Shown: positions 6,962 through 25,090 of the stretch, piece by piece
Layout of the letters: each line of letters starts with the position of its first letter
How positions within the stretch are numbered: position 1 is the stretch's first letter
Origin: Rhodothermia bacterium
GTDB lineage: Bacteria > Bacteroidota > Rhodothermia > Rhodothermales > JAAAOL01
Length of the DNA: 45,807 bases
Assembly (NCBI GenBank): GCA_030428385.1
Contig: JAUIDY010000043.1
Coordinates: forward strand, 1-45,807
Direction: 5' to 3'
The notes under the pieces: generated by a model
What the model was told of the DNA's origin: nothing
The model's input: the letters and a program-made list of their open reading frames with translations, nothing else
Database searches by the model: none
Translations under genes and position numbers: made by a program

Positions 6962-8377
6962 ATGCAGGCAACGGAAAACACCTACAATTACGATTTACTG
7001 GTCATCGGATCCGGCCCCGCCGGGCACAAGGCAGCCATCGAGGCTGCGAAACACGATAAGCGCGTGGCTATGGTGGAGCGAAATCCGACGGTGGGTGGAA
7101 TCTGCTTGCAGGCCGGAACCATCCCCAGCAAAACCCTCCGCGAGTCAGCCGTTTATCTCTCTGGCTACCGGCAGCATAATGTGTATGGGAAGTCGTATGT
7201 CGTCAAGGAGAATATTACCATGGACGACCTGCTGTTTCGTACCGATTGGGTGATTCGACAGGAGTCAGACGTGATGCGGTACCAATTACGGCAAGAGCGC
7301 GTGGAAGTCATCCATGCAACGGCGAGTTTTCAGGATGCCCATACCCTGCGGCTCGACATGGCCGACGGGCAATCTTCACGCTTGGTGACAGCCCAAAATA
7401 TCGTTATCGCGGTGGGGAGCGTCGCCACCGAGGCGGATGGGATTCCGTTTGATGGCAAAAACATCTTCACCAGTGATGACATTCTGCAACTCGACGAAAT
7501 ACCCAGTACCCTGACGATTGTAGGGGGTGGGGTCATTGGGCTGGAATATGCCAGCATGTTTGCGGCCCTGGGGACACGGGTCACGGTCATTGACCGGCGG
7601 CAGCGTTTGTTGACGTTTGTGGACGAAGAAATCATCGATGCGCTGGTGTACCACATGCGGCAGTATCGGGCTACGTTTAGGCTCAATGAGGAAATAACGT
7701 CTATCGAACTGCTTGACGACATCCATGAGAGCGTGCGGCTACATACGGCGAGTGGGAAGCAAATTATCGCTGAAAAGGTGTTGTACAGTATTGGGCGAAC
7801 GGGCGCAACCAGTAGCCTCAACCTGGAGAAAGCCGGGCTGGAGTCTGATTCGCGAGGACGCATTAAGGTGAATACCAATTATCAAACGGCGATGGAGAAT
7901 ATCTACGCGGTTGGAGATGTGATAGGCTTTCCGGCCCTGGCCTCTGCGGCCATGGAGCAAGGACGCTTGGCAGCCCTGCACATGCTCGGCCAGGAGACGG
8001 GCGTCATCCGTGACCTGCTGCCGTACGGCATCTACAGCGTCCCAGAAATCTCCATGGTTGGGAAGACGGAGGAAGAACTAACGCAGGCAGGTATTCCCTA
8101 CGAAATTGGGAAAGCGCAGTATGACGAAGTGGCCCGTGGGCAAATTAATGGCTATGAGACCGGGTTGTTAAAACTCATCTTCCACCTAGAGACCCACGAC
8201 CTACTTGGGGTGCATATCATTGGCGAAAGCGCCAGCGACTTGATTCATATCGGGCAGGCTGTGCTCGCGTTTAACGGTACCATCGACTACTTCGTCAACA
8301 CTGTGTTTAATTATCCAACGATGGCCGAGTGTTATAAAATCGCCGCCTTGGACGGGTTGAGTCGCATCTCCGTGTAA
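6962..8377 (+). CDS. sthA: Si-specific NAD(P)+ transhydrogenase (soluble)
   Basis: A 471-aa flavoprotein of the pyridine nucleotide-disulfide oxidoreductase family that moves reducing equivalents between NADPH and NAD+ in the cytoplasm. Seen in order: the N-terminal FAD motif IGSGPAGHKAA, the segment CLQAGTIPSKTLRE, the second dinucleotide motif GGGVIGLEYA, the FAD-binding AVGDVIG, and the C-terminal dimerisation domain. In disulfide-using relatives (lipoamide dehydrogenase, glutathione reductase) the motif has two cysteines spaced C-x4-C. Here the second is Thr, the mark of SthA, so no redox disulfide is formed. The frame is open from 6887, but that start would fall within the mnmA terminator. 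It converges with zapE, with 10 bases between the stops. Confidence 0.92.
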   Translation: MQATENTYNYDLLVIGSGPAGHKAAIEAAKHDKRVAMVERNPTVGGICLQAGTIPSKTLRESAVYLSGYRQHNVYGKSYVVKENITMDDLLFRTDWVIRQESDVMRYQLRQERVEVIHATASFQDAHTLRLDMADGQSSRLVTAQNIVIAVGSVATEADGIPFDGKNIFTSDDILQLDEIPSTLTIVGGGVIGLEYASMFAALGTRVTVIDRRQRLLTFVDEEIIDALVYHMRQYRATFRLNEEITSIELLDDIHESVRLHTASGKQIIAEKVLYSIGRTGATSSLNLEKAGLESDSRGRIKVNTNYQTAMENIYAVGDVIGFPALASAAMEQGRLAALHMLGQETGVIRDLLPYGIYSVPEISMVGKTEEELTQAGIPYEIGKAQYDEVARGQINGYETGLLKLIFHLETHDLLGVHIIGESASDLIHIGQAVLAFNGTIDYFVNTVFNYPTMAECYKIAALDGLSRISV

Positions 8378-10813: not shown

Positions 10814-11404
10814 TCAGGCTGCTAGGGCGCTGATTTGAAATTCGTGATCAAGGTAGTCTGAAAAAGATTCAAACAGCGCCACTCCCTTGGATTCGGGTGA
10901 CGTCGGTGTTCCACCACGGACACGATATACAAACGATTTTTGCTCCAGTGCTGTGATCTCGTCCTTCAATTGAAGCGCCCGGATCCGCAATTCTAACAAT
11001 CGATTCGAATACTGATCTTGGTCGGTGTTTCCAACGCGGGGTGGAGGCGACTTTCGCCCACCGTTTTCCAGGTTGAGCAATAAGGAAATCTCGTGGTATA
11101 TATCCACATTCAGAGCGCCAGAGACCTGCATTCGCAGGATGTCTGCGGAGCCATTATTCAGCACGGTCAGCGTAATTTCGAGCGACAAATAGCGGGCTGA
11201 AACAGCGTTTTCGTACACATCCAACTCAAAATCAGCGTCCATGCCAAAATAGGAGAAAAACGTATTGAGGCACTCGTGTTGTACGTTGGCGATTTGTGAC
11301 AAAAAAAGACGTTCGCGATGGGCAGCAATTTCGTCGACTACTGTTTCCGCTTCTTCAATTTGCTTTCGAAGGTGGGCTAGCTGCTTCAGGGTTTCAATGC
11401 TCAT
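10814..11404 (-). CDS. Hypothetical protein with terminal coiled coils
   Basis: This 196-aa cytoplasmic-looking protein is not recognised. Residues 1-40 form a strong coiled coil (LKQLAHLRKQIEEAETVVDE). Residues about 45-115 alternate hydrophobics like a small beta domain, and residues about 135-160 form another heptad-like helix. A Gly/Pro-rich link (RKSPPPRVGN) separates the middle from the second coil. No signal peptide, membrane segment or catalytic motif is visible. ATG 11404 (MSIETLKQ) is chosen over the in-frame codon at 11422 because the coiled coil starts there. Its tail faces the SnoaL-like gene. Confidence 0.65.
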   Translation of the reverse strand: MSIETLKQLAHLRKQIEEAETVVDEIAAHRERLFLSQIANVQHECLNTFFSYFGMDADFELDVYENAVSARYLSLEITLTVLNNGSADILRMQVSGALNVDIYHEISLLLNLENGGRKSPPPRVGNTDQDQYSNRLLELRIRALQLKDEITALEQKSFVYRVRGGTPTSPESKGVALFESFSDYLDHEFQISALAA

Positions 11405-11496
11405 GGATGTAGGAACTACCAATATTAATGGTCTGGGTTACCCCTAATATCGGGTGTTTTCGAATATGCTAAAGTACAGTATTGGGAAAATTCAGT

Positions 11497-11530
11497 ACAA
11501 AAAAAGCCTGTGCATGGTCGCACAGGCTTT
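11497..11530 (-). terminator. Terminator of the HEAT-like gene (minus strand)
   Basis: AAAGCCTGTGC (11503-11513) and GCACAGGCTTT (11520-11530) form a perfect 11-base-pair stem with a six-base loop. Read on the minus strand the stem is followed by a run of T, so it terminates the gene ending at 11613. On the plus strand the T run is interrupted. Confidence 0.85.
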
Positions 11531-11612
11531 AGGGTAGAGATGAGGAAAGAGAACGTAGAACAGGGGGGAAGAAGAGGTTCAACACCTCGTGTTTCCCTGT
11601 CCTCAAACCTTG

Positions 11613-12059
11613 CTAGGGAGTGGAATTATGCTGGGCCCAAAGTACGGCTTCCATGGTTCGACGTACCAGGGCTGAGCGTTCGAACGCCAAAGAGCGAGTT
11701 AAGAAATCCAACGCCCAGGCATCCTCCATCGCACCAAGCGCCACCACGGCCATGCGTCGTACCCGTTCATTGTCGTGGTCGCGATACATGCGGACGATAT
11801 CAAACCGGGCAGCACTCACATCTACCGCTGTCCCATACTTAATTACCATCTGTAGTCCGGCTAGCTTCAGCCCTTCGTTGTCCGAAGTGATGGCTTGTAC
11901 CAGATTCTGGTTAAAGCTTTTCCATTGGGCGGAGGTGACATCCGTGGTAGTTGGAGGCACAAGTGAAAGGGGTTCATCATCAGTTGTTGCGAAAACGGCT
12001 ATGGGCAGGGTTGCCAAGACAAAGAAAAGCGCTAATAGAGAGAGGGTAAGTTTTTGCAT
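11613..12059 (-). CDS. Small secreted HEAT-repeat-like protein
   Basis: A 148-aa exported protein. The N-terminal signal peptide (MQKLTLSLLALFFVLATL, cleavage near AVFA) is followed by an acidic/Thr-rich linker and then helical repeats of HEAT type: GLKLAGLQMVIKYG, RVRRMAVVALGAMEDAWALDFL and LVRRTMEAVLWAQ, each a helix pair of about 35-40 residues. Such repeats usually mediate protein contacts in the envelope. ATG 12059 is chosen because the signal peptide begins there and GGAGG lies seven bases upstream, one of the few good Shine-Dalgarno motifs in this window. The frame is open to 12089. Its own terminator lies about 80 bases downstream. Confidence 0.78.
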   Translation of the reverse strand: MQKLTLSLLALFFVLATLPIAVFATTDDEPLSLVPPTTTDVTSAQWKSFNQNLVQAITSDNEGLKLAGLQMVIKYGTAVDVSAARFDIVRMYRDHDNERVRRMAVVALGAMEDAWALDFLTRSLAFERSALVRRTMEAVLWAQHNSTP

Positions 12060-12380
12060 GGAGGCCTCCGAACGAATGGATAGGTACAACGATATGGTGA
12101 CCTACGGCTTTGTTTTTATATAAGATACGGGCAGAACTGTGAATCAGGGTGAGTGGTATTTCTTCGCTCCGACTTGCTGGTTTTAAGGTGCAAATGGCAA
12201 TAGGAATACGGGAGATGTTCGATTGATAACAAATTGATTACTCCCCATTGGGGTACGCCTGTTAGGTTTCTGATTCGTCCGTTCCGGTCGAATATGCCTT
12301 TATTCAATTCTCGAATTGATTGGTGATTTGTCAGCAGGGATGAAACGAGCAGAAAAACGAAATTAATCTATTCATCGACC
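12060..12380. other. Intergenic region between divergent genes
   Basis: This 321-base AT-rich stretch separates the minus-strand HEAT-like gene from plus-strand ppk1 and must hold both promoters. TATATAA at 12117-12123 could serve as a -10-like element for the minus-strand gene. I see no repeat, RNA structure or convincing small gene in the rest. Confidence 0.4.
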
Positions 12381-14483
12381 ATGTCCGAAGAGCGTTTGTC
12401 CCCTTGGCAGAATCGGGAGTTAAGCTGGCTTTCTTTCAACGAGCGGGTGCTGCAAGAGGCACAAGACCCGACCGTTCCGATTTTCGAAAGACTCAAGTTT
12501 CTGGCCATTTATTCTTCTAACTCCGACGAATTCTTTCGTGTGCGAGTGGCTTCGCTGCGGAGCTTATTACGGCTAAAGAAAAAAACGACGAAAGCGCTTC
12601 AGTTTAATCCGTCGAAGTTGCTTCGGGAAATACATCGAATCGTCACTGCCCAGCAAGAACGCTTCGGCGAGATATTACGTCGACAGTTAATTCCCCAACT
12701 GGAAGAGTTGGGCATTCGGCTTATCAATGAGCAGAACGTTTCTGCTTCCCAAGCAGTGTTTCTCCGTTCTTATTTTGAGGCAGAAGTGCGGCCTCATCTT
12801 GAGTTGATCCTGCTGAAAGACACATCAGATCAGCAGGCGGAACACCTTTTTTTAAAAAACCAGAAAATCTATCTCATCGTTGAGCTTTGGGAAAAGGAAA
12901 CCCATGACCTTCTTCAGGCAGGGCCAACATTTGCACTACTAAATATTCCAAGTCCGCCGCTAGACCGGTTTATCTCGGTTCCGGCGGAGCATGGCCATCA
13001 AGCCGTCATTTTTCTAGATGACGTGATACGGCTTCATCTGGGGCTGCTTTTTCCAGAAATGGAGGTAGGCTTTGCGTATGCAGTGAAATTGTCACGCGAT
13101 GCCGACTTGTATTTGGAAGATGAGTTTTCTGGGGATGTAGTGGCAAAAATCCGACAGAGCTTACGCAAGAGAGAAACGGGACTTCCCAGTCGGTTTTTGT
13201 ATGACCTGCAAGCTCCCTATGCCTTGGTGGCCTATTTAAAGCAGGTTTTTAGCCTTCATGATGAGGATCTGGTTCCTGGTGGGCGCTATCACAACCTAAA
13301 CGACCTGATGGATTTTCCCCGGTTCGGGTTGACAGAACATAGTGACCCCAATCTACCCGTATTACCGCACCCACCATTTAATCAGGCATCTTCGATGTTT
13401 GAGGCGATTCGTGCGAAGGACCAGATGCTCCATTTCCCCTATCAGTCGTACGACTATGTGGTCCAATTTCTCGAACAGGCAGCAAACGATCCTTCCGTAC
13501 AGGAAATATGGATCACTTTGTATCGGGTGGCCCGCGATTCCTCAATTGTTCAGGCGTTAATCAAGGCAGCTAGGAAAGGCATACAAGTCACCGCATTTGT
13601 AGAGGTGAAGGCCCGGTTTGATGAAGCCCAAAACTTACATTGGGCTGACCAAATGGAAGCAGCGGGTGTGCGTACCTGTTACAGCATGCCTCATCTGAAA
13701 GTGCATGCCAAATTAGCATTGGTAGGACGCGGCGAAGAAGAAGGACTCCGCTATTATGCCTACTTAAGCACCGGGAATTTTAACGAAAAAACAGCTGCGC
13801 TATACACCGACCTCGGCTTGTTTACTGCCGATCCGAGGTTGGCTGAAGAAGTGCGTCAGGTCTTTGGGTATCTGGTTGGTGAGATGCCGGATCCCGTATT
13901 TGAGCACTTGCTCGTAGCGCCCTTTGAGATGCGCCAAGCCTTTTATGATCTGATTGCTTATGAGCAAACGCAGGCAATGGCAGGAGCGCCCAGTGGAATA
14001 ACGCTCAAAATGAACAGCCTGGAGGACCCTGAAATTATCAAGCGGCTGTATGAGGCCTCACAGGCTGGCGTACCAATGCGATTGCTGATACGTGGCATTT
14101 GTTGCCTGGTACCGGGTGTACATGGGTGGAGCGAGACGATTGAAGCACGCAGTATCGTAGATCGCTTTCTAGAACATGCACGGGTGTACCAGTTTCACGA
14201 CAACGGAAAACAGAAAGTATTCGTAGCCTCGGCAGACTGGATGACCCGGAATTTGAGCCGCCGGGTTGAGGTCGCGTTTCCGTTATACGACCCTGAGGTT
14301 AAACAGCAAGTGGTAGAAATGCTGGAAATGCAATGGGCCGACAATACCAAAGCCCGTCTCCTGGATGCGGCCCAATCGAATACATATGCGGAGCGAGCAG
14401 GAGATAATTTGCGGGCGCAGAAAGCTTGGTTTGAAGTCCTGAAGGAATTAACTGAGGAAGCAACAGCAGATCTATCTGCCTAG
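12381..14483 (+). CDS. ppk1: Polyphosphate kinase 1
   Basis: PPK1 reversibly transfers the gamma-phosphate of ATP onto inorganic polyphosphate. At 700 aa it matches the family. Seen in order: the N-terminal FLAIYSSNSDEFFRVRVASL segment, the head domain, FPYQSYDYVVQFLEQAA, the catalytic core with H442 in HLKVHAKL (equivalent to the autophosphorylated H435 of the E. coli enzyme), STGNFNEKTAALYTD, and H599 in FLEH (equivalent to E. coli H592). The offset of seven residues is the same for both histidines, which supports the alignment. ASADWMTRNLSRRVEV near the C-terminus is also characteristic. ATG 12381 is the natural start. A bidirectional terminator follows the stop by about 30 bases. Confidence 0.96.
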   Translation: MSEERLSPWQNRELSWLSFNERVLQEAQDPTVPIFERLKFLAIYSSNSDEFFRVRVASLRSLLRLKKKTTKALQFNPSKLLREIHRIVTAQQERFGEILRRQLIPQLEELGIRLINEQNVSASQAVFLRSYFEAEVRPHLELILLKDTSDQQAEHLFLKNQKIYLIVELWEKETHDLLQAGPTFALLNIPSPPLDRFISVPAEHGHQAVIFLDDVIRLHLGLLFPEMEVGFAYAVKLSRDADLYLEDEFSGDVVAKIRQSLRKRETGLPSRFLYDLQAPYALVAYLKQVFSLHDEDLVPGGRYHNLNDLMDFPRFGLTEHSDPNLPVLPHPPFNQASSMFEAIRAKDQMLHFPYQSYDYVVQFLEQAANDPSVQEIWITLYRVARDSSIVQALIKAARKGIQVTAFVEVKARFDEAQNLHWADQMEAAGVRTCYSMPHLKVHAKLALVGRGEEEGLRYYAYLSTGNFNEKTAALYTDLGLFTADPRLAEEVRQVFGYLVGEMPDPVFEHLLVAPFEMRQAFYDLIAYEQTQAMAGAPSGITLKMNSLEDPEIIKRLYEASQAGVPMRLLIRGICCLVPGVHGWSETIEARSIVDRFLEHARVYQFHDNGKQKVFVASADWMTRNLSRRVEVAFPLYDPEVKQQVVEMLEMQWADNTKARLLDAAQSNTYAERAGDNLRAQKAWFEVLKELTEEATADLSA

Positions 14484-14514
14484 CGAAGTATTCCATTTAT
14501 CAAAGTAACCCACC

Positions 14515-14550
14515 AAAAAAGGCAGCCCAGTTTTCACAAGGCTGCCTTTT
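14515..14550. terminator. Bidirectional terminator between ppk1 and the TPR gene
   Basis: AAAAGGCAGCC (14517-14527) and GGCTGCCTTTT (14540-14550) form an 11-base-pair stem with a 12-base loop. T runs follow on both strands (four on plus, six on minus), and the hairpin sits between two converging genes. Confidence 0.88.
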
Positions 14551-14572
14551 GAAGAGAACGCATTCGGTGGAC

Positions 14573-15913
14573 TTAGCCGCCCGCCCGTACGGTCGTGGTG
14601 CCACTGATGGTGAGGCCGCGGCACGAGTAGCTCGCCTGCGTGCTGCCACCCACGGTCCACTTGTCCGTGTAGAAGATGTCTTCGGCGTTAGGTGCGTATT
14701 GCAGGTACGTAGAAGCCTGAGAGCCCATACCCGCCGCCGAGAAGGCATCAGCGATAAGCCAGTACACCGCCTTCGATTCACGGTCGGAAACGCCACAAGA
14801 AACCACTGCCGTCACGTACAGGTTCGGGATGGCCTGTTTGGCGCGCGTGTAGTTCGGATCGACGTTTAATGCTTGCCGGAAGTACGTCCGTGCGGTGCCG
14901 TAATTCTCCGCATTCTGCTCCAGCGTCCCGAGGTTGTAATAGTCCTGCGCCTTGATCTCGGCACCCAACCCCTGCAGCTTCTGAAACGCATCCCGCGCCT
15001 CTTCCGTCTCTCCCGCTGCCACATACGCCGCGAGGGCCTGGCGGTAGAGGCTCGTCAGCAGTTCATCGTCAAACTGATCAGCGGCCTCTCCATTGGCTAG
15101 CCCCAGCAAGGTTTGCACGGTCTCTAGGGCTTCGTCTTCTTTGTCCAGATCGGTATACACCTGCAGGGCTTGCAAGAGCAGCGTCACATTGTTGGGATCA
15201 TCCTGAATCTGATCATAGAGCCACTCTTCCAACTCCTCCGGGAAATTATCCAAGATGTACTTCTTCGTCCGGTCCACAATTTCGGTGATCTTCGGATCTT
15301 CCCCACGCTTTTCGATGATGTCATCTAGTGTATCAAAGACGCCTCCAAAGTCGCGATCCCGCAACTGGCCGTTAACGAGCAAGCCAATGTAGTAGGGGTC
15401 GGTACGCATGGGATCCATCTCATACATGGCCCGATAGGCATCAAAAGCCTCATTTTCCCGATCAGCCAGGGCGTCGCGGCGTCCCTGGATAAAGCGCCCC
15501 TTGTCGCGGGTCCAGATGAAGGCGTCAATTTCAGCACCAACGGCTTCGAGGCGGGGTACAGCAGTGTCGAAGATTACGAGGGCAGAATCAAGCCAGGCGC
15601 GTTTCTGTTCGGGAGAGTCGGCGCGCACAGCAAGCGAGTCGTAGAGGTCGACGGCGCGCTCGAAGTTACGGTCAGAATTGTTGGGGTAACCGGGCGCGTG
15701 CTGGAGTATCCACTGGAGGTCGGGCAAGGCGTCGCTGTAGTTGCCGTTCTTAAAGTTCTCGTAGTAGAGACTGTAGTGGATGGCCTTGTCCTGGTCGCTC
15801 GGTTCGTCACCGTTGGTCTGGGCAAGGGCGGGTTGGACCAATCCTGCCATGAGCAGGATCAGTAGCGCAGCAGAATTTCGCATCGTCCGGTAAAAAAGTC
15901 CTTGGGCATTCAT
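14573..15913 (-). CDS. Secreted tetratricopeptide-repeat protein
   Basis: A 446-aa exported protein with a signal peptide (hydrophobic residues about 13-29, cleavage likely after ALA). The mature part is all helical with TPR-like units: YYENFKNGNYSDALPDLQW near the start, a central block around residues 200-300 with alternating helices, and the clearest unit AQDYYNLGTLEQNAENYGTARTYFRQAL near residue 340. The last 60 residues lose the repeat pattern and become beta-like with two cysteines, ending in SGTTTVRAGG. TPR proteins in the envelope usually scaffold complexes. It lies last in a minus-strand group after the barrel protein gene (58-base gap). ATG 15883 is an alternative start that leaves a shorter signal peptide. 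Confidence 0.83.
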   Translation of the reverse strand: MNAQGLFYRTMRNSAALLILLMAGLVQPALAQTNGDEPSDQDKAIHYSLYYENFKNGNYSDALPDLQWILQHAPGYPNNSDRNFERAVDLYDSLAVRADSPEQKRAWLDSALVIFDTAVPRLEAVGAEIDAFIWTRDKGRFIQGRRDALADRENEAFDAYRAMYEMDPMRTDPYYIGLLVNGQLRDRDFGGVFDTLDDIIEKRGEDPKITEIVDRTKKYILDNFPEELEEWLYDQIQDDPNNVTLLLQALQVYTDLDKEDEALETVQTLLGLANGEAADQFDDELLTSLYRQALAAYVAAGETEEARDAFQKLQGLGAEIKAQDYYNLGTLEQNAENYGTARTYFRQALNVDPNYTRAKQAIPNLYVTAVVSCGVSDRESKAVYWLIADAFSAAGMGSQASTYLQYAPNAEDIFYTDKWTVGGSTQASYSCRGLTISGTTTVRAGG

Positions 15914-15971
15914 GGTTGGGTGGGTTTTCTATGGGACCAAGGGGGCACGTCCTAGAATAGACACACACGCC

Positions 15972-17261
15972 TTAGCGTAGTTTCCGTCTTGTGAACCAGC
16001 GCTCGCCGATATTCAGCGTCGCCGAGAATCCCAGGAAGCGGTCGCGGACAAAAGACCCTTCGGCCGACCCCCGTGATCCTACCTCGAAATTAATATCAAG
16101 ATGCGTGCCAGCAAAGAGTGTGGGAATCCCCATTCCTACCGTGAGCGCTGAAGTTTTTAGGTCCAATTGTTCGCTCGGAGAAATGTAGGATTGGTCCACA
16201 TATCCTCCCAAACGATACGCAATACGCTGAAAAAAAGGCGCAGAGATATCTCGTCCCCCTGGAATAAACTCGATCCCACCTGACAAACGGAAGCGATCCT
16301 GAAATTGATTTAAGGACCCAGGACTATAGCCTGGAATAGACAACGACGCATCAAATTGACTCCACGGTTCATATCGGCCTCCCACCACCGCTGTCCAACG
16401 GTTGTCAGTTTTATAGGCCAAGCCAAACCGCAAACTCATCGGGATTTCAAGATCTCCTGTTATTTGAGATTGCAGGGTATCGCGGTCCAGGCTCTCGCCC
16501 AAGGTCAAGGCCCGTTCGCCATCCATCGTGAACGGAAGACTGATACTGGCCCCTACGCTGATATTATCCGCTTCTCGAAAGATGCGGGAATGTGTGTAGA
16601 GTGCCCCCACGGTTGCCGAAGCCCCGCGGTATTGGGTCGACGTGGCAAGGTTGGTTTCCGTAAATGATTGTGTCCCAAACGTCGTGCGCCGACCCTCTTC
16701 GATAATGCCAAAGATCAAATCTGCCGTAAGTCCTAGGGAAAGCCGGGGCGTCACCCGATACCCGGTTCCCACCGCGATCTTTTGAAGACCGCCCGAGCCT
16801 TCATAATTGATCGTGTAGGTGGAGGTTTCGCCGTTTATCGGATCGGTGACCAACTCCCCCGGCGTACGTACGCGGTAGCTTACCCGGGAATACGGAGAAA
16901 AAGAAGCACCAAACCCCCATTTGTTGGTTCGAAAGGGAAAGGTGAACTGGACCGATCCCAGGGAGCCTGAGCGGAGACTACTGCTCGTCTCATTGGCATC
17001 GCTAATCCATAGCCGCTGCATACGGGCATTTACATTGAGGCGGGTTAACGCTTGAAATCCCAAGGACCCCGGATTTTCGAAATTGGGATAGTTAAAGGAC
17101 CAGAGCGCCGCACTTTCGCCTCCTAATCCCTGCAGTTGCGAGGAGGAAAAGCTTTGCAATTCGCCCACCCCGAACCGAGAATACAAGGAGCCTGCATCCG
17201 TTGACTGGGCGAAGGCAGTAGGAGTGATCCAGAGGAGTAGGAACAGGAAGAGCAATCGCAT
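15972..17261 (-). CDS. Outer-membrane beta-barrel protein (FadL/PorV-like)
   Basis: The 429-aa product has a strong signal peptide (MRLLFLFLLLWITPTAFA, then Q). The rest has the alternating polar/hydrophobic strands, frequent aromatic girdle residues and terminal aromatic (ERWFTRRKLR) of an outer-membrane barrel. The N-terminal YSRFGVGE segment and the early Gly/Asn-rich turn (GLGGESAALW) resemble the FadL/PorV-like barrels common in Bacteroidota, but family assignment is by general resemblance only. The cargo or function is unknown. The frame is open to 17309; ATG 17261 is chosen because the signal peptide begins there. It starts 51 bases after the stop of the DUF4270-like lipoprotein gene and is probably in the same operon. 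Confidence 0.8.
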   Translation of the reverse strand: MRLLFLFLLLWITPTAFAQSTDAGSLYSRFGVGELQSFSSSQLQGLGGESAALWSFNYPNFENPGSLGFQALTRLNVNARMQRLWISDANETSSSLRSGSLGSVQFTFPFRTNKWGFGASFSPYSRVSYRVRTPGELVTDPINGETSTYTINYEGSGGLQKIAVGTGYRVTPRLSLGLTADLIFGIIEEGRRTTFGTQSFTETNLATSTQYRGASATVGALYTHSRIFREADNISVGASISLPFTMDGERALTLGESLDRDTLQSQITGDLEIPMSLRFGLAYKTDNRWTAVVGGRYEPWSQFDASLSIPGYSPGSLNQFQDRFRLSGGIEFIPGGRDISAPFFQRIAYRLGGYVDQSYISPSEQLDLKTSALTVGMGIPTLFAGTHLDINFEVGSRGSAEGSFVRDRFLGFSATLNIGERWFTRRKLR

Positions 17262-17311
17262 AGGAAAAAAAGGCGCGTACGAATGGGACTCTCGGATTGC
17301 AGCACACATTG

Positions 17312-18454
17312 TTAGCGCCCCGACGGTGATAAGGTAAGCAGGGCCTCGGGTTCTTTATCAGTACTGGTGGGGGTATGGATCAGCAGGGGGTTGATCGAGT
17401 TGGCATCGCCCGGAGGAAAAAGTCGAAAATGGTCGAACAGGTCGGGCTCAAAAAAAGCGCCCTGTAGCAGGGTCCGCATGGCGTTGGACGAAAAACGAAG
17501 GTTGCCGTGCTCATCCAGCGAGCCGCTAACACTTATCAGCACCACTTCTTCCCCTTCATCTGTGAGTGCCATGGCCTGCAAGAAGACATCTCTCAGGAGT
17601 GGGCGAACAAAATTGGCAGGCGTATCCTGGATCTGAGAGGAGTCAGCGAAAACGCGCACGTAAGCTCCATTAAGGGGTTCTTCCAGCACGTCAGTGAAGT
17701 CAAAGGCAAACTTCACGGAAGCACCTACGCCATCTTGAATAACCACCCGATCGGGGGGAAGTACAGGTTCATTGGAACGACTAATAGATGACAGTGACTT
17801 GGTAGCTGGATACAGGATCGTGTCAGTAGGGGTAATGAGCTGCAGATCGGCGCTTACGCGGCTGAATCCCACCACTGCACTGGATGCCATGGTCTGTAGT
17901 GCAAAGCCGTGAAACGCATCCGTGAAGGTAGCTCCCCGGATGTCTCCTTCGTATTGCGTAATCCAACTTTCGGGTAACGGAATGGTAAGCAGCGAGTCAG
18001 AAGCAGCAAAGTCGAAGGTGGTGAGCGGCATGGCTTCAATAGGAAGCGTGGTATCGGCCGTACCGCCTGCTTCGGCCCAGTCCTCCAGGACTTCCGTGAT
18101 CGAAAGAGATAGCGTTAACAATGTATCGCCATATACATAATTTGGCTGCAACAAAATATTGGCGGCAATGAGGGTGGAATCATCGGGCGAGCCGAAAGGG
18201 CCGGTGAAGTCCATATATCCAATTGCGGAAAGGGAGCCCAGCAAAGGATCGTCCACCGATCCTGCCAGCACCCGGCTTGTCCCGCCAGTCACATCTTCGA
18301 TTTGTTCGGTTTCGAAGCGGGACGTGATAAGGCGGGTCACCATCGGCTCCCCTTGTTCTCCCACAAGGTCCACACCTACCGTTGCCGCATCTTCGCACGC
18401 CATCAGGCCCACCATCAGCAAACAGGCCAATCCCACAAAAAGCAATCGATTCAT
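17312..18454 (-). CDS. DUF4270-like lipoprotein
   Basis: A 380-aa exported lipoprotein with lipobox LMAC (Cys at residue 20) after a hydrophobic signal. The mature part has features I associate with DUF4270 proteins of Bacteroidota: an early G-x-D-L motif (VGVDLVGE), the segment VLAGSVDDPLLGS, and an ITEVLEDWAE strand-turn. Length and surroundings also fit. The function of this family is not known; the N-terminal lipid anchor suggests an outer-membrane, possibly surface-exposed protein. ATG 18454 is chosen for the lipoprotein signal; the open frame to 18541 is ignored. Its partner genes are the short GT5-like gene upstream and the barrel gene 51 bases downstream. Confidence 0.68.
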   Translation of the reverse strand: MNRLLFVGLACLLMVGLMACEDAATVGVDLVGEQGEPMVTRLITSRFETEQIEDVTGGTSRVLAGSVDDPLLGSLSAIGYMDFTGPFGSPDDSTLIAANILLQPNYVYGDTLLTLSLSITEVLEDWAEAGGTADTTLPIEAMPLTTFDFAASDSLLTIPLPESWITQYEGDIRGATFTDAFHGFALQTMASSAVVGFSRVSADLQLITPTDTILYPATKSLSSISRSNEPVLPPDRVVIQDGVGASVKFAFDFTDVLEEPLNGAYVRVFADSSQIQDTPANFVRPLLRDVFLQAMALTDEGEEVVLISVSGSLDEHGNLRFSSNAMRTLLQGAFFEPDLFDHFRLFPPGDANSINPLLIHTPTSTDKEPEALLTLSPSGR

Positions 18455-18567
18455 TGAAGAAAAGTCGGTATCAGGAAAGTAATCAGTCCGTTGCATGCGC
18501 GACGGTCCCCGTGCAGCCAACAACGCCGAGCATGGGTACAATCGTATGTACCCGTGCCTTGATACAG

Positions 18568-18602
18568 CAAAAACCCCATGCGGCTTGGACCGCTGGGGTT
18601 TT
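18568..18602 (-). terminator. Terminator/attenuator between GT5-like and DUF4270-like genes
   Basis: AAAACCCCA and TGGGGTTTT, with an inner GCGG/CCGC pair, form a strong hairpin. On the minus strand it is followed by five T. It lies 73 bases after the stop of the GT5-like gene and before the DUF4270-like gene, so the latter may have its own promoter or depend on readthrough. Confidence 0.8.
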
Positions 18603-18674
18603 AAGGGGTGCCCTATATGCAGAGACTACCCCACAGGTTTCGAAGGGCTCGGATTCTACCCATTATGAACGATG

Positions 18675-19448
18675 CTACGCCAAGACATCGCTCAAGGTAT
18701 GGTCATACAAGGCAATGGCTTGCTCCGTTTGCTCCTCTTGCTCGGCGCTGAATTGCAGGTCGTCGGAAGAAGGGGAGACGGAAGGCGGATAGATAGCAAT
18801 ATCCGCAAAATGCAAGCCTACATGAGGCAACGAAAGCCCGGTTGCTTCACCATTTACCTGGAGGTCCAATGCCTCAACGTGGTCGTCGGTGAGGGTTGCC
18901 TTTGCATCTACCTCATCTGGCGTGAAGACCACCTTGGTATCAGCGAAGAGGGGATCGTCTGCATATTCGGTGGCGAGCAGCATAGGGATAAGGCCGCTGA
19001 TCCATCCAAAGGCATGGATCACGTCGGGGCTCCACATCAATTTTCGGAGGGTCTCAAGCACCGCGCGTCCAAAAAACAAGGCCCGCTCGGTATTATCATC
19101 GAACAAGGTGCCGCTTTTATCCGCATGGATGCCCTTGCGCTTGAAGTAGCGAACGTTATCCATGAAATACACCTGAAGGCGAATCCCGGGGATCGAAGCC
19201 ACTTTTACCTTTAACGTCTCAGTTTCACTGCCCATCGGCACCTCAGTGCCAGAGAGCCGGATGACTTCATGCAGCCGGTTCCGCCGCTCACTGATGATGC
19301 CGTATCGTGGCATCATAATCCGGGTATCAAAATCGCCGGCTTCAAGGAGTTGTTCGGGCAGGGCGCGTACCAAGGATGCCGTTTCCGAAATACTGGCAAA
19401 GGGTTCAACCTCTCCAGACACAAAAAGAATCCGCTTCGGATTTGCCAT
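18675..19448 (-). CDS. Truncated GT5-type 'glycogen/starch synthase' protein (Bacteroidota short form)
   Basis: This 257-aa protein corresponds to the N-terminal Rossmann half of glycogen/starch synthase (GT5): RILFVSGEVEPFAS, the TRIMMPRYGIISERRNRLHEVIRLSG segment, VYFMDNVRYFKRKG, and DVIHAFGW. It ends before the C-terminal half, where the catalytic and nucleotide-binding residues of GT5 enzymes lie. The ADP-glucose-binding K-x-G-G motif is also missing: at the matching point the protein has SISE. It is therefore unlikely to be an active glucan synthase, although databases usually give it that name. The same short form, next to DUF4270, is familiar from Bacteroidota genomes. ATG 19448 is preferred over the upstream TTG at 19457. 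A terminator hairpin follows the gene. Confidence 0.85.
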   Translation of the reverse strand: MANPKRILFVSGEVEPFASISETASLVRALPEQLLEAGDFDTRIMMPRYGIISERRNRLHEVIRLSGTEVPMGSETETLKVKVASIPGIRLQVYFMDNVRYFKRKGIHADKSGTLFDDNTERALFFGRAVLETLRKLMWSPDVIHAFGWISGLIPMLLATEYADDPLFADTKVVFTPDEVDAKATLTDDHVEALDLQVNGEATGLSLPHVGLHFADIAIYPPSVSPSSDDLQFSAEQEEQTEQAIALYDHTLSDVLA

Positions 19449-19671
19449 ACTGCTCAAGCGTTGGTTTAAAGGAAAAATGCCAATACTTCTCGATCCCAGG
19501 TCACATCAAAGTAGATGGGAAACAGCGTCGGCCCGCTGCGATTTGAGAAGACCACATGTGGATTTTTTCTGAATGGAACCGCTTCCTGCAGAGCCAAACA
19601 ATTCAATTAAATTAATAAAAATGTAACGCGAATTCAAGATCTGCGGGCCCGTGAACTGTCGAGTTTCAGCG

Positions 19672-19692
19672 AAAAGGACCCCTTTTGGGTCC
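19672..19692 (-). terminator. Terminator of the phosphodiester glycosidase gene
   Basis: GGACCC (19676-19681) and GGGTCC (19687-19692) form a perfect stem with a five-base loop. On the minus strand four T follow. It lies about 40 bases downstream of the stop at 19734. The remaining 223 bases up to the GT5-like gene start are AT-rich and show nothing further. Confidence 0.7.
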
Positions 19693-19733
19693 GCACTGCC
19701 AAAAATGTCACGTGTCGGCGCTGGCTTGGTCTC

Positions 19734-20504
19734 TCAGGGACGCGGTAAAGGAATCAGGACGGCTAGAATCCCAGCAAACTCCCCATCTTCCATTCGTCCC
19801 ATTTCGGGGGCAAGAAGTTTGGAAATACCTCCATCCAGGTAGAGCGCTTCCTCGACGCCCAGTTGATCCCGGAAATAAACGGCAAAGTCGTAGAAATTGA
19901 CGGAGCCATTCGAAATAACCAGATAAACGGAGCCGTCAGGCGAAACGCCGATGCCACTCCGCAAACGGCAGTTTCGAGACCCATCCGTAAAAGCGGGATG
20001 CACGCGGTTCATATTCAGCAACAGCGGTCCTGACTGGGTGGCATACACTACATCGGGTCGGGCCTCGGCATAACGAGATGCTTCATAAATCGAGGCACCT
20101 TGGTCATTGATAAAAAAGACGCCGTTCGGTTTTAAAAAGAAATTGCCGTAGCCATCCGCAAGATTGAGCGGGGAAAGTTCTTGCCCTGCTTCCACAAACA
20201 AGCCTGTTGGAATAAACCCGGGTTCGAAAATCCCCGCATTGGTAGCGGCGATAAGCTGGAAGTGATGCTCTTTGGCCCATTGTTGAATCTGCGACAGTGA
20301 ACCATATCGGTTGCCCGCATCGTCTTTCCAAAACAGTCGGATCTCAGCTTGGGCAAGATCAACGCGGATAACATCGTAGGGATGGGTCGGGTCAAGGGAG
20401 CAGTCCTCATTTTTTATCGATTGTACCAGGGATGCACAGCCTGTAAATAACGCAAGGCACAGGCAGAGCAAGAGGAGCAGCGTGCCTTGGCGGGGGCAGG
20501 GCAT
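19734..20504 (-). CDS. Phosphodiester glycosidase (NAGPA/DUF2233) lipoprotein
   Basis: A 256-aa lipoprotein with a signal ending in the lipobox FTGC, so anchored in the envelope. The mature domain matches the phosphodiester glycosidase family, related to the human mannose-6-phosphate uncovering enzyme: AATNAGIF near the start, SGPLLL in the middle, the RSGIGVSPDGSVYLVIS strand pair, and the signature LYLDGGISKLL near the C-terminus, where the family usually has LDGGGS. In bacteria the substrate is not established, but sugar phosphodiesters in the envelope are likely. The start is ATG 20504; the in-frame TTG at 20519 is less likely. It is divergent from the 5'-nucleotidase gene, with 158 bases between the starts. 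Confidence 0.88.
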   Translation of the reverse strand: MPCPRQGTLLLLLCLCLALFTGCASLVQSIKNEDCSLDPTHPYDVIRVDLAQAEIRLFWKDDAGNRYGSLSQIQQWAKEHHFQLIAATNAGIFEPGFIPTGLFVEAGQELSPLNLADGYGNFFLKPNGVFFINDQGASIYEASRYAEARPDVVYATQSGPLLLNMNRVHPAFTDGSRNCRLRSGIGVSPDGSVYLVISNGSVNFYDFAVYFRDQLGVEEALYLDGGISKLLAPEMGRMEDGEFAGILAVLIPLPRP

Positions 20505-20662
20505 AGGGCAGATCGCCAATGAGGTAAGAGGGTGGGAGGTATCGCGTTACGGAGAAAAGACACGCAACAGGCTCGATACTCCATCATCTATCGTTGCGTT
20601 TCGAGCAGTCTGCCTGTACCTTTTTGTCCCATTCATGCACCCGCTCCAACCCCCTTTGATCC

Positions 20663-22204
20663 ATGCGCCACCTTCTTTTCCGTCACGCCTTGCTTACCTG
20701 CCTGGTACTGTTGATTGGGTGTGGGGGGACTCCGACAACCATTCAGCCTTCCTCGGAGCCAATCCCTCCTGTGGTTCAAGAAGAACCGATCGATCGCACC
20801 ATTGAGGTGACCATTCTGCAGTTAAATGACGTCTATGAGATTACACCCGTAGAAGGAGGGAAACGTGGAGGACTCGCGCGCGTGGCGACCCTGAGGAACG
20901 AGTTGCTCGCTGAAAACCCGAATGTGATTACCGTTATTGCAGGAGACTTTTTTAGCCCTTCGGCGCTAGGGACGGCTCAGGTGGACGGGGAGCGGCTGGC
21001 AGGGAAACAGATGGTCGCAGTGCTCAATGCCTTGGGAATGGACCTGGCAGCGTTCGGAAACCACGAGTTTGACATCGATGAAGATGCCTTCCTGCAGCGA
21101 CTTGATGAATCTGAATTCCCCTACCTTTCCGGAAACGTATTTGATCGCGCAGGAAATCCTTTTCCAAACTCGGTACCGCATGTCGTCGAGACCATTCCGG
21201 GGCAACCGGGTGACACCCTGCGTTTGGGTTTTATCGGCACCACACTGACGAGCGGAGTGGCTGAGTACGTACGCTATTCCGATCCGATATTGGCAATAGA
21301 AGCGGAAGTTGAACGTATTGAAGATGATGTGGATGTGCTGATCGGTTTAACACATTTGTCCTTGGAGGAAGACATAGACGTTGCAACAACATTCACTAAC
21401 ATTGACCTGATTTTGGGGGGACACGAGCACGACAATATTCAGGTTTGGCGTGGTCCCAATCTTACCCCCATCGTGAAGGCAGATGCCAACGCCCGCACCG
21501 TTTATATCCATCGACTGCGCTTCGATCCAGAAACAGAAGACTTCTCGATTACTTCGAATCTTAAGGAAATAACAGATGCCATCCCTGATGATCCGGAGGT
21601 AGCAGAAGTCGTAGAGGCGTGGTTGGAGATAGGATTTGAAGGGTTTCGGGAAAACGGATTAGAGCCTGGATCGCCAGTGGCCGTTGTGCCTGTTTCACTG
21701 GATGGACGCGATAGCAGCGTTCGCGATCATCCCACCCGTCTGACAGCCTTGATTGCGGAGGCTATGTTGGCCGAAGCAGATACGCCGGAATTGGCTCTTT
21801 TTAACAGTGGCTCCATCCGGATCGATGACGTTATCCAGCCTGGTACGGTCATTCAGTATGACATTATCCGCGTGCTCCCCTTTGGTGGAGCCATCCTCAC
21901 CACTGAAATACAGGGAGACGTGCTTGTGCAGGTACTAACCCAGGGGGTGGCAAACCGAGGGACGGGAGGCTACCTGCAAACCGCCAACGTCGAAATCACG
22001 GACGAGGGATGGCAGGTTCAAGGCGAGGCCATTGATCCAGCACGCTGGTACCGTGTGGCGATTAATGATTTTTTGCTCACCGGGTATGAAACCAACCTCG
22101 GCTTCCTGACAGACGAAAATCCGGGCGTCCGCCGCCTCACCGAGCACGGAGACATCCGCCTCGCCGTTATAGCAGAAATGGAGCGCCGCTACCCCAATCC
22201 GTAG
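20663..22204 (+). CDS. 5'-nucleotidase/UshA-family lipoprotein
   Basis: A 513-aa lipoprotein (lipobox LIGC, Cys at residue 20) with an N-terminal metallophosphatase domain and a C-terminal 5'-nucleotidase substrate domain. Metallophosphatase motifs in order: LQLNDVYE, GDFFSPS, GNHEFD, the GLTHL segment and GGHEHDN. The C-terminal domain has FNSGSIR near residue 380, where relatives have NGGIR, and TGGYLQ. The first motif usually reads N-D-x-H; here the His is Tyr, a variation known from a subgroup related to Drosophila CG11883. Expected activity is dephosphorylation of nucleotides in the periplasm or at the surface, for phosphate and nucleoside scavenging; the exact substrate is unknown. ATG 20663 starts the signal. 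Confidence 0.88.
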   Translation: MRHLLFRHALLTCLVLLIGCGGTPTTIQPSSEPIPPVVQEEPIDRTIEVTILQLNDVYEITPVEGGKRGGLARVATLRNELLAENPNVITVIAGDFFSPSALGTAQVDGERLAGKQMVAVLNALGMDLAAFGNHEFDIDEDAFLQRLDESEFPYLSGNVFDRAGNPFPNSVPHVVETIPGQPGDTLRLGFIGTTLTSGVAEYVRYSDPILAIEAEVERIEDDVDVLIGLTHLSLEEDIDVATTFTNIDLILGGHEHDNIQVWRGPNLTPIVKADANARTVYIHRLRFDPETEDFSITSNLKEITDAIPDDPEVAEVVEAWLEIGFEGFRENGLEPGSPVAVVPVSLDGRDSSVRDHPTRLTALIAEAMLAEADTPELALFNSGSIRIDDVIQPGTVIQYDIIRVLPFGGAILTTEIQGDVLVQVLTQGVANRGTGGYLQTANVEITDEGWQVQGEAIDPARWYRVAINDFLLTGYETNLGFLTDENPGVRRLTEHGDIRLAVIAEMERRYPNP

Positions 22205-22273
22205 CAGATGACGGAAGGATGACAGAGGGGCGGCGTACATTGGAGGAAAAGGGTTCTTGCGTGCCGCGTTAAT

Positions 22274-22391
22274 CGTGAAACGTGAGAATGCCTAGGCGTA
22301 TCGTTTGAGTCGATCAAATGGTATGGTCAACGCTTGCAAGGTCTTGTCTTTCTGGCGTTCTTCGATCGACTGAATAATAACACGTTTCACG
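22274..22391. repeat. Inverted repeat upstream of mutS
   Basis: CGTGAAACGTG at 22274-22284 reappears inverted as CACGTTTCACG at 22381-22391, just before the mutS start. A second pair (GAGTCGATC and GATCGACT) lies between them, also inverted. The arms are 96 bases apart. It could form a large imperfect stem, or represent copies of a dispersed short palindromic repeat. Confidence 0.5.
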
Positions 22392-22402
22392 CATCACGAT
22401 AC

Positions 22403-25090
22403 ATGGGTAAGGGGAAGACGAAAAAGGCGCAGGGGCAGACCCCACTTATGCGGCAGTATTACAAGATCAAAGACCGTCATCCGCACGCGATCTTGCTTTT
22501 TCGCATGGGCGATTTCTACGAGACGTTTGACGCCGATGCAAAGACAGTGAGCCAGGTGCTAGGCATCACGCTGACGAAACGGGCCAATGGGAAGGCCCAA
22601 GACGTGCCGCTGGCCGGGTTTCCCCATCATGCCCTTGACAATTACCTGCCCAAACTGGTAACCGCCGGGCTGCGGGTGGCGATCTGTGAGCAGTTGGAAG
22701 ACCCCAAGATGGCGCGAACGATAGTCAAGCGCGGTGTCATCGAGGTTGTAACGCCCGGCATCTCCTTTCACGATCAATTGCTCAATCCCAAACGCGCCAA
22801 TTATCTTGCCGCGGTCTGCTGGGGCCGAGAACGCAGCGACAAAGGCTGGGCGGGCGTGGCGTTTTTGGATGCTTCTACGGGCGAGTTTTCCGTTACCGAG
22901 GTTCCAGCCGAGCAAGTGGATGCACTGCTTCAAACCATCGCACCTGCGGAAGTGCTGGTGGACAAACGCCAACGCGGGGAGGTGCAGGAACTGAGGTTTC
23001 AGGACTATTTGTTGTCGCCCCAAGAGGATTGGGTTTTTGGCTACGATTTCGCCTATGAAACGCTGCTTCGTCATTTTCAAACGCATTCCCTGAAAGGCTA
23101 TGGCGTAGAGGACCTGAAGCTCGGCCTCGTGGCTGCGGGCGCGGCGTTGTATTACGTCGGCGACACACAGAAAGGAAAGTTACCTCATATCCGTCGTATT
23201 CAGCGGTTCCGCAGCGACGACTTTATGGCGCTCGACCCGCAGACCAAGCGCAACCTCGAGCTCGTCGCCTCGATGCAGCATGGGGGGCAAGAGGGTACGC
23301 TCGTGCAAATCCTCGATGCCACACTCACGCCGATGGGGGGGCGGCTGCTTCGCAAGTGGCTCGTGCGCCCCCTGCGCACCGTAGATAATATTGAAAAGCG
23401 GCTGGAAGCTGTGGACGCGTTGGTGACCAGCCCACGAATGCGCGAACATCTGCGCACCGAACTCGGCGAAGTGGGTGACCTGGAGCGGCTGGCGGCGAAA
23501 GTAGCGACAAATCGGGCGATGCCTCGGGACATGGTCCACCTCAAACTGACGCTGAAGCAGATCCCCAAACTCAAGTCGCTTTTGCATGACGAAGCGTGTG
23601 ACACCCTCCGCAAACTGGGCGATAACTTGACATTGTGCACCGACGTGGTGGAGCGCATCGAACGAGCGCTGGTGGACGAGCCGCCTGCGTTGGTAGGGCA
23701 GGGGGGGCTGTTCCGAGAAGGGTACCATGATGCCCTCGACGAATTGCGCCACATCGCCACGTCGGCTAAGGATTGGGTGGCCCGGATGCAGCAGAAGGAA
23801 AGCGAGCGCACCGGCATCACCTCGCTTAAAGTGGGGTTTAACAAGGTCTTTGGCTATTACCTGGAGGTCACGAACGCACACAAAGACAAAGTGCCAGACG
23901 ACTTCATCCGCAAACAAACGCTGGTCAACTCGGAGCGCTACATCACCCCGGAACTGAAGGAATACGAGGAGAAAATCCTCACCGCCGAGGAGAAAATGGC
24001 CTCGCTGGAGCAGCAGTTGTTCGACGAGTTGCGTATGGCTGTGGCGGAAGAAACAACAGCGCTACAACTCAACGCCTCCTATCTGGCCATGTTGGACTGT
24101 CTTGCCAGTCTAGCCTATACGGCCGAGCGAAACCAATACGTCCGCCCCGAGGTGCACGACGGCACCGAGCTCTCTATTGAGGAGGGGCGGCATCCTGTGG
24201 TTGAGCAGACGCTTCCCGCAGGTGAGCCGTTTATTCCCAACAGCGTCAATCTTGACCCGGACGGGGAGCAAATTCTGGTCATCACGGGGCCGAATATGGC
24301 GGGCAAGAGCGTCGTTCTCCGGCAAACCGGGCTGATTGTCTTACTGGCACAGGTGGGATCGTTTGTCCCAGCAGCGAAGGCTCGTATCGGTGTTGTGGAC
24401 CGTATCTTCACCCGCGTGGGAGCGAGCGACAACCTGGCGGCGGGCGAAAGTACGTTTCTTGTGGAGATGAACGAGACGGCCAACATCCTCAACAACGCCA
24501 CTGCCAGGTCGCTCATTTTGCTTGACGAGGTAGGACGCGGCACGTCTACGTTTGACGGTCTTTCCATCGCGTGGGCCTTGGTTGAATACCTGCACGAAGC
24601 ACCCGAACTTGCTGCCCGGACGCTTTTTGCTACGCATTATCACGAATTAAACGAGTTGGCGAACCGGTACCCGCGTGTGCGCAACTACCGCATCCAGGTC
24701 CAAGAGCACGACGGAAAAGTTATCTTCCTGCGCAAACTTATCCCCGGCGGGGCCGACCACTCGTACGGCATCGAGGTGGCACGTATGGCGGGGCTTCCCG
24801 AACCAGTAATCCAACGAGCGAAAGAGGTGCTACGGCAGCTTGAAAGCCAACATTTGGTGGTGGAAGAAGCCAGTGATCCCGCCCACGGAGATGGCATCCC
24901 CAGCCGCTCTGCTCAGCCCGTCGCCGCCACGATTGACGAGCCCGATTTCCAGATGTCGCTTTTCACGGCGGCCCCAGATCCTGTAGCCGAGCAGCTCAAA
25001 GACACCCTTCGTAGCCTCGACCTCAACCGCATGACGCCCATCGAGGCGCTGATGAAGCTGGATGAACTGCGGCGGTTGGTGGAAGGATGA
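22403..25090 (+). CDS. mutS: DNA mismatch repair protein MutS
   Basis: The 895-aa MutS recognises base mismatches and small loops and starts repair with MutL. The mismatch-binding Phe-x-Glu is F38-Y39-E40 in GDFYETF. The connector, lever (KVGFNKVFGYYLEV) and clamp follow. The ATPase has Walker A GPNMAGKS at residues 629-636, the MSH motif region (AGESTFLVEMNETANIL) and Walker B LILLDEVGRGTSTFDG. Near the C-terminus QMSLF (residues 850-854) is a canonical beta-clamp binding motif, followed by the dimerisation helix-turn. The frame is open to 22334, but ATG 22403 (MGKGKTKK) gives the normal length. The stop overlaps the next small gene by four bases. Confidence 0.97.
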   Translation: MGKGKTKKAQGQTPLMRQYYKIKDRHPHAILLFRMGDFYETFDADAKTVSQVLGITLTKRANGKAQDVPLAGFPHHALDNYLPKLVTAGLRVAICEQLEDPKMARTIVKRGVIEVVTPGISFHDQLLNPKRANYLAAVCWGRERSDKGWAGVAFLDASTGEFSVTEVPAEQVDALLQTIAPAEVLVDKRQRGEVQELRFQDYLLSPQEDWVFGYDFAYETLLRHFQTHSLKGYGVEDLKLGLVAAGAALYYVGDTQKGKLPHIRRIQRFRSDDFMALDPQTKRNLELVASMQHGGQEGTLVQILDATLTPMGGRLLRKWLVRPLRTVDNIEKRLEAVDALVTSPRMREHLRTELGEVGDLERLAAKVATNRAMPRDMVHLKLTLKQIPKLKSLLHDEACDTLRKLGDNLTLCTDVVERIERALVDEPPALVGQGGLFREGYHDALDELRHIATSAKDWVARMQQKESERTGITSLKVGFNKVFGYYLEVTNAHKDKVPDDFIRKQTLVNSERYITPELKEYEEKILTAEEKMASLEQQLFDELRMAVAEETTALQLNASYLAMLDCLASLAYTAERNQYVRPEVHDGTELSIEEGRHPVVEQTLPAGEPFIPNSVNLDPDGEQILVITGPNMAGKSVVLRQTGLIVLLAQVGSFVPAAKARIGVVDRIFTRVGASDNLAAGESTFLVEMNETANILNNATARSLILLDEVGRGTSTFDGLSIAWALVEYLHEAPELAARTLFATHYHELNELANRYPRVRNYRIQVQEHDGKVIFLRKLIPGGADHSYGIEVARMAGLPEPVIQRAKEVLRQLESQHLVVEEASDPAHGDGIPSRSAQPVAATIDEPDFQMSLFTAAPDPVAEQLKDTLRSLDLNRMTPIEALMKLDELRRLVEG

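Follow-up and report, generated by a model that had tools for sequence, protein, structure and literature searches.

What is a truncated, starch-synthase-like gene doing at the head of a cluster of envelope genes? The question is raised by a 45,807-nucleotide stretch of DNA from a Rhodothermia bacterium (Bacteroidota; assembly GCA_030428385.1, contig JAUIDY010000043.1), the whole of which is called the window here, in which a gene for a short protein of glycosyltransferase family 5 (GT5) is followed by genes for a DUF4270-like lipoprotein, an outer-membrane barrel and a tetratricopeptide repeat (TPR) protein. An earlier note made from the sequence had read these four genes on one strand, and their order and placement on the minus strand were borne out by the open reading frames of the window and by domain matches. 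The four genes are best explained as a bamH-bamG locus encoding parts of a Bacteroidota-type beta-barrel assembly machinery (BAM), with the short GT5 gene at its head and the short GT5 itself a cytoplasmic pseudo-glycosyltransferase, a non-enzymatic binding or sensing adaptor probably made together with BamH; we place this overall reading at a probability of roughly one half. BamH and BamG are already known, and it is the short GT5 that is without a functional description in the literature searched.

The identity of the surface pair is the firmest part of the answer: profile matches, the BamG cut-off and fold and profile matches to solved chains make it almost certain that the lipoprotein and barrel are BamH and BamG by sequence and fold. 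The window lipoprotein scored 15.4 bits against Pfam PF14092 (DUF4270; cut-off 27) and had no NCBIfam match at 1e-5, so that neither curated BamH model, PF14092 or NF053686, was reached at its cut-off; the Bacteroidia-like counterpart in locus L084 scored 665 bits on NF053686 (BamH_fj, cut-off 420). With the lipoprotein family profile (A2, 13 rows), however, the P. gingivalis BAM complex was hit at its DUF4270 chain, 9hjm_G (6.8e-16), and the AlphaFold2 (AF2) model of the window lipoprotein (pLDDT 82.0) had solved BamH chains as its top three matches, namely 9hjm_G (Z 22.9, root mean square deviation (rmsd) 5.8, 347 aligned), 9n2d_C (Z 21.6, rmsd 3.8, 331 aligned) and 9his_G (Z 20.6, rmsd 3.7, 328 aligned), with the next-best match at Z 12.9. 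A lipobox cysteine, invariant in 13/13 rows, is encoded at 18395-18397 and followed by Glu-Asp (LMAC-ED, by eye), and the likelier bamH start, also judged by eye, is the ATG at 18454 and not 18541. The barrel scored 254 bits on the NCBIfam BamG model NF053685, just over the cut-off of 250, which is tight because only 11/40 genomes of the window's order and 38/99 of a phylum sample reach it, and the barrel family profile matched the solved BamG chains 9hiv_F (5.5e-62) and 9n2d_B ("Bam G"; 1.4e-56). The surface proteins, whose identity the earlier note had missed, are thus BAM subunits described in 2025; bamH is essential in F. johnsoniae (PMC12611786) and important, not essential, in B. thetaiotaomicron (PMC12578637).

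The short GT5 is a different matter. It matches the starch-synthase N-domain PF08323 at 134.5 bits (cut-off 22.7) over profile positions 1-185 of 239, and a Pfam scan of its 260 residues found no C-lobe domain. The best matches of its AF2 model (pLDDT 88.7, pTM 0.86) were starch synthases, headed by starch synthase IV (6gne_A; Z 26.4, rmsd 2.6, 238 aligned), with E. coli GlgA (2qzs) at Z 23.6, rmsd 2.7 and 235 aligned; residues 8-260 of the model superpose on GlgA 1-464, and the last helices coincide. As modeled, the protein is a starch-synthase N-lobe plus the closing C-terminal helix, with the C-terminal Rossmann lobe missing. The description of it as only the N-terminal half of a GT5 enzyme therefore stands for the missing lobe and not for the closing helix, which appears to be retained in a low-confidence part of the model and whose Y251 is present in 93% of 43 short rows of the GT5 alignment.

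We take the KTGG motif (the ADP-glucose loop), the HN pair, Lys15, His161, Arg300, Lys305 and Glu377 to be the functional residues of the family. The window protein has SISE for K-x-G-G, as had been read from the sequence, and DE for the HN pair; it has no residues at the positions of R300, K305 and E377, and all catalytic positions examined are lost. Among 44 short rows (including that of locus L204, discussed below) Lys15 and His161 are each kept in 5, and Arg300, Lys305 and Glu377 are without counterpart, while the 77 other full-length rows, which include E. coli GlgA and unlinked outgroups, keep Lys15 in 76, His161 in 77, Arg300 in 74, Lys305 in 77 and Glu377 in 77. The short GT5 therefore shares with GlgA and the starch synthases (CAZy GT5) an N-lobe fold and closing helix but differs in having no C-lobe, no KTGG and no equivalents of R300, K305 and E377. 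The expectation that it was unlikely to make glycogen is borne out by the loss of catalytic positions in the window protein and most short rows, and we are highly confident that the short GT5 is not a glycogen synthase.

The linkage of this gene to the BAM genes extends well beyond the window. It was followed through 40 genomes of the window's order, a phylum sample and a class sample (99 genomes each, with 12 in common), and labels such as "Bacteroidia-like" and "Ignavibacteria-like" were inferred from gene order, tree position and named neighbors. The order sample yielded a strong GT5 match (E <= 6.1e-69) in 40/40 genomes, the window's own included, and in the phylum sample BamG lay within 5 kb downstream of GT5 in 24/25 genomes of the window's class, again including its own. 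Of 23 Bacteroidia-like genomes outside that class with a short GT5, 20 had DUF4270 no more than 2.5 kb downstream, and in the class sample the short GT5 (E <= 1e-30, frames of 256-336 amino acids) was present in 95/99 Bacteroidia-like genomes (91/92 when completeness was 90% or more and contamination 5% or less), followed directly by DUF4270 in 82 of the 95, by Pfam alone, with a median of 270 bp between hits. The earlier statement that short GT5 next to DUF4270 recurs in Bacteroidota was thus correct, and co-occurrence across the phylum excludes an arrangement restricted to this genome; such conservation speaks against chance. The 13 class genomes without PF14092 just downstream were all re-examined except G212, G213 and G229; a divergent bamH stands beside GT5 in G083 (BLAST cluster cl4) and G220 (123 bits) despite the lack of a PF14092 match, and weak bamH profile matches do so in G158 (20 bits) and G197 (23 bits).

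The other members of the cluster are less constant. While bamH and bamG adjoin in the window's class, BamG was within 5 kb of GT5 in 0/23 Bacteroidia-like genomes of the phylum sample, so the proposal of a conserved four-gene unit holds for the window's class and fails in Bacteroidia-like genomes, where bamG is elsewhere. Twenty Bacteroidia-like loci show a divergent panC-type gene flanking GT5 (cl1, 19 loci), then bamH and a glmS-type gene (cl5, 16/20), with panC, panD, glmS and BamH_fj assigned by models in L084. Loci of the window's class run GT5, bamH, bamG and TPR gene (cl6, 15 loci), with eno in 9 (cl9; named for L094). Ignavibacteria-like loci have a full-length GT5, often a small gene, then bamH and bamG; the small gene looked GmhB-like by eye in 7/10 gaps read, and three such frames that were tested scored 131-148 bits, below the cut-off of 178. 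BamG was within 5 kb downstream in 27/30 of these other genomes with full-length GT5, all of which have BamG. Among 14 genomes of the wider FCB phyla, those behind the named loci, 11 had a BamG-profile match (E <= 1e-10), seven of at least 168 bits and four weak. A scan of named loci was queried with the GT5 N-domain, BamG being judged too divergent for degenerate patterns, and among its results the Calditrichia locus L192 pairs GT5 with bamH/bamG; bamH and bamG were not seen in the stretches examined, some of them short, of L184, L190, L193, L196, L209 and L225.

Phylogenetic analysis of 133 GT5 rows (29 of 162 rows, partial or outgroup, were excluded) placed the 43 short rows in one clade (SH-aLRT 100) within a 51-row clade (95) that also holds family f25 and Thermochlorobacteriaceae-like rows. 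Many full-length GT5 genes upstream of bamH-bamG look intact by their motifs and so look like apparently working enzymes, and because the corresponding slot in Ignavibacteria-like genomes holds a full-length, often intact GT5, the GT5-bamH-bamG linkage is probably ancestral and older than the truncation. Several families show partial loss. Five rows of family f19 have a changed EPCG motif (Cys379 to Ser) with other residues kept, possibly an intermediate stage of decay; these rows (L122, L127, L138, L139 and L185) lie beside bamH-bamG with Lys15 intact, and the motif is ETSA or ENSA in the four that were read. In three f30 rows the GG of KTGG is gone, as are His161, Arg300 and Lys305, and four f25 rows (L131-L134) have lost KTGG, Arg300 and Lys305 and kept HN, Glu377 and Cys379. 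The curated "starch synthase" model PRK14098 (NF010698), which scores highest of the NCBIfam models on the short GT5 (177 bits, cut-off 754), is passed at 935 bits by L131, which lies in the same 51-row part of the tree and likewise is without KTGG, but which differs from the short GT5 in being full length and in a genome without BamG at E <= 1e-15. Parsimony required 7 changes of KTGG state over the 133 rows, and the simplest reading of the alignment and tree is an ancestral linkage with decay following more than once. Locus L204, from a Bacteroidota metagenome-assembled genome, may represent a second, independent truncation: its single-lobed GT5 (6995-7861, 288 amino acids), with KTGC and the HN pair lost, precedes a GmhB-like frame, bamH and bamG and falls among Ignavibacteria rows, and a single clade of L204 plus the other short rows was not rejected (approximately unbiased test, p 0.24).

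Loss of catalytic residues has not meant loss of constraint. Within the window's class GT5 has diverged less than BamH or BamG have (median identity across 21 loci 46%, against 38% for bamG and 27% for bamH), and in 18 Bacteroidia-like loci the medians were 44% for GT5 and 20% for bamH. Twenty-six positions, many of them basic, are identical in 43/43 short rows, and most lie between residues 46 and 108: R46, P50, R58, L62, H63, V65, R67, L68, K85, V86, A87, Q95, V96, Y97, F98, D100, F105 and R107. Comparison was made with 47 intact, linked full-length rows, a set excluding f19, f30, f25 and unlinked full-length rows, and V86 and A87 are switches, since Ser occupies these positions in 100% and 89% of that set.

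A history consistent with these patterns may be proposed. The ancestor would have been a full-length starch- or glycogen-synthase-like enzyme, probably already encoded upstream of bamH-bamG, and the line leading to the window's class and to Bacteroidia would have lost the C-terminal Rossmann lobe while retaining the closing helix. Catalytic positions of the N-lobe would then have been free to vary, with others, mostly in residues 46-108 and many of them basic, staying or becoming invariant. Through this region, rather than the old active site, the short GT5 may bind either another protein or a ligand that is anionic or phosphorylated, and, probably co-transcribed and co-expressed with BamH, it might sense carbohydrate supply for envelope growth or adapt growth to it. 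The parts of this proposal differ in strength: that the short GT5 is a non-catalytic adaptor or sensor is plausible at somewhat less than even odds, and the tie to envelope growth is tentative to a similar degree. The boldest form, in which Bacteroidota have, near-universally, a probably essential single-lobed pseudo-glycosyltransferase that couples the state of sugars or nucleotide sugars to envelope building, an active synthase having been repurposed for a role that outlived BAM in a 0.49-Mb genome, we consider rather unlikely.

That genome, G164, consists of one 489,825-base contig with 22% GC, rated 93% complete and holding some runs of N. It encodes a short GT5 (L232:8925-9779, minus strand, 284 amino acids) that keeps 21/26 of the invariant residues and sits between eno (by BLAST) and a gyrB-like gene. 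Searches of G164 detected no Omp85/BamA at 0.01, no BamG at 0.001 and no DUF4270 at 1e-6, and no bamH or bamG profile match at E 1, although very divergent genes could escape profiles; GlmS and PanC were not detected either. GT5 is kept here without detectable BamA, BamG or BamH, so that BAM may not be required for its work; this argues, from one genome, that the short GT5 does something needed even without BAM. Its presence in 95/99 class genomes (91/92 of the fairly complete ones) and its survival in G164 together speak for an important housekeeping role.

Several observations weigh against the adaptor proposal or against its link to BamH. An exclusive tie of GT5 to BAM is unlikely in view of G164, and DUF4270 lies elsewhere in the genome in 7/95 class genomes with a short GT5, of which five were re-read and have no bamH beside GT5 (G041, G045, G177, G185 and G207); both speak against a protein that works only with the surface proteins. 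Family f25 provides a full-length but degenerate GT5 in genomes without BamG: in each of its 21 genomes the sole match to the A1 profile (E <= 1e-6) was full length, DUF4270 was within 2.5 kb in 0/21 and no BamG was found at E <= 1e-15. Residues 46-108 are a putative binding surface judged from conservation only, and 15/26 invariant positions also reach 94% conservation or more in the 47 intact relatives; they may be structural, which weakens the case they make for a new surface. The genes downstream vary by lineage (glmS-like; GmhB-like phosphatase; bamG-TPR-eno) and the neighborhood therefore points to no single pathway. Finally, promoter and terminator counts in the window were no higher than in shuffled sequences.

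The best surviving alternative, though on balance we think it rather unlikely, could be a frozen ancestral neighborhood, in which the role of GT5 is housekeeping unrelated to BAM and nothing but the promoter that it carries keeps the gene beside bamH. This would account for the persistence of GT5 between eno and the gyrB-like gene in G164, and it would accord with F. johnsoniae, where the 100 bp upstream of fjoh_0824 were taken as a native promoter and BamH is Fjoh_0823 (PMC12611786). It would not account for the observation that other neighbors change (panC, glmS, GmhB-like gene, bamG, eno) while GT5 and bamH mostly stay paired. Distinctly less probable is a short GT5 that serves BamH alone from the cytoplasm, as chaperone, pilot or translational partner in its export; the close spacing of GT5 and DUF4270 in the class sample, and a pairing that holds in Bacteroidia-like genomes though bamG is elsewhere, would fit, but the retention of GT5 in G164, and where DUF4270 lies elsewhere, would not. 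Continued catalysis, by a lone N-lobe acting as a new enzyme or as half of a split glycosyltransferase of the kind formed by Alg13/Alg14, is improbable to about the same degree, for although the lobe is of Rossmann type with invariant polar and charged residues and many full-length relatives resemble working enzymes, KTGG, the HN pair and the HDW region are missing in most short rows and the C-lobe profile A10 (E <= 1e-5) matched only frames of at least 373 amino acids (21 matches, 14 genomes). A split enzyme with a separately encoded C-lobe, which would have overturned the earlier interpretation, was rejected on that basis, as 0/21 of the matches fell in a shorter frame; other GT5 or C-lobe matches in the window's own genome were weak only (34.9 and 40.4 bits). 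The non-enzymatic adaptor made together with BamH remains the reading that we prefer.

The features of the locus are collected in the table. TPR repeats in the fourth protein were confirmed by PF00515 and other TPR models. Upstream of GT5 on the same strand (19734-20519, minus) is a lipoprotein-like gene with a NAGPA domain (phosphodiester glycosidase), a singleton among the neighborhood clusters. No Rfam match at gathering score was found in window positions 11000-23000.

Table. Features of the short GT5 and bamH-bamG locus (window coordinates)
Feature	Position	Strand	Basis
Short GT5 gene (260 aa)	18675..19457	-	PF08323, 6.6e-39
SISE, residues 22-25, where GlgA has the KTGG ADP-glucose loop	19383..19394	-	Alignment of 81 GT5 rows and E. 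coli GlgA
Residues 46-108, 18 of 26 invariant positions	19134..19322	-	43/43 short rows
C-terminal helix, residues 238-259	18681..18746	-	Place of the last helix of GlgA; low confidence, pLDDT 38-62
bamH (BamH/DUF4270 surface lipoprotein)	17312..18541	-	Family profile and AF2 fold match to BamH chains
bamG (FadL-like barrel, BAM complex)	15972..17309	-	NF053685 and family profile
TPR protein with signal peptide	14573..15913	-	PF00515 and other TPR models; signal peptide by eye

No functional work on the short GT5 was found in the literature searched, and the words "glycogen", "synthase" and "glycosyltransferase" do not occur in the main texts of PMC12611786 and PMC12578637. Two genes of cultured species would nevertheless correspond to it. 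By its numbering next to Fjoh_0823, fjoh_0824 is probably the short GT5 of F. johnsoniae, and in B. thetaiotaomicron, where Bt4306 is BamH (PMC12578637), the adjacent number belongs to BT_4307, a "putative glycogen synthase" placed as expected of the short GT5. Both screens with a B12 photoprobe in PMC8941943 (Table 1) showed enrichment of BT_4307, with log2 values of 2.61 and 1.05. This enrichment and the promoter use of fjoh_0824 are clues to role, to be treated as leads and not proof.

The finding has several implications. First is that a gene in nearly all sampled Bacteroidia-like genomes appears to be mislabelled "glycogen synthase", and PMC10797578 still names BT_4307 as a potential glycogen synthase and takes it as a sign of glycogen storage. 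For f25 genomes, the source of glycogen synthesis, if any, comes into question given a GT5 without KTGG, Arg300 and Lys305. Secondly, with forms ranging from an intact enzyme to a single lobe, this one locus offers an instructive case of an enzyme becoming a probable non-enzyme. Lastly, the short GT5 is conserved, is encoded just ahead of bamH and persists in a tiny genome, all of which make it a candidate essential protein in gut and oral commensals.

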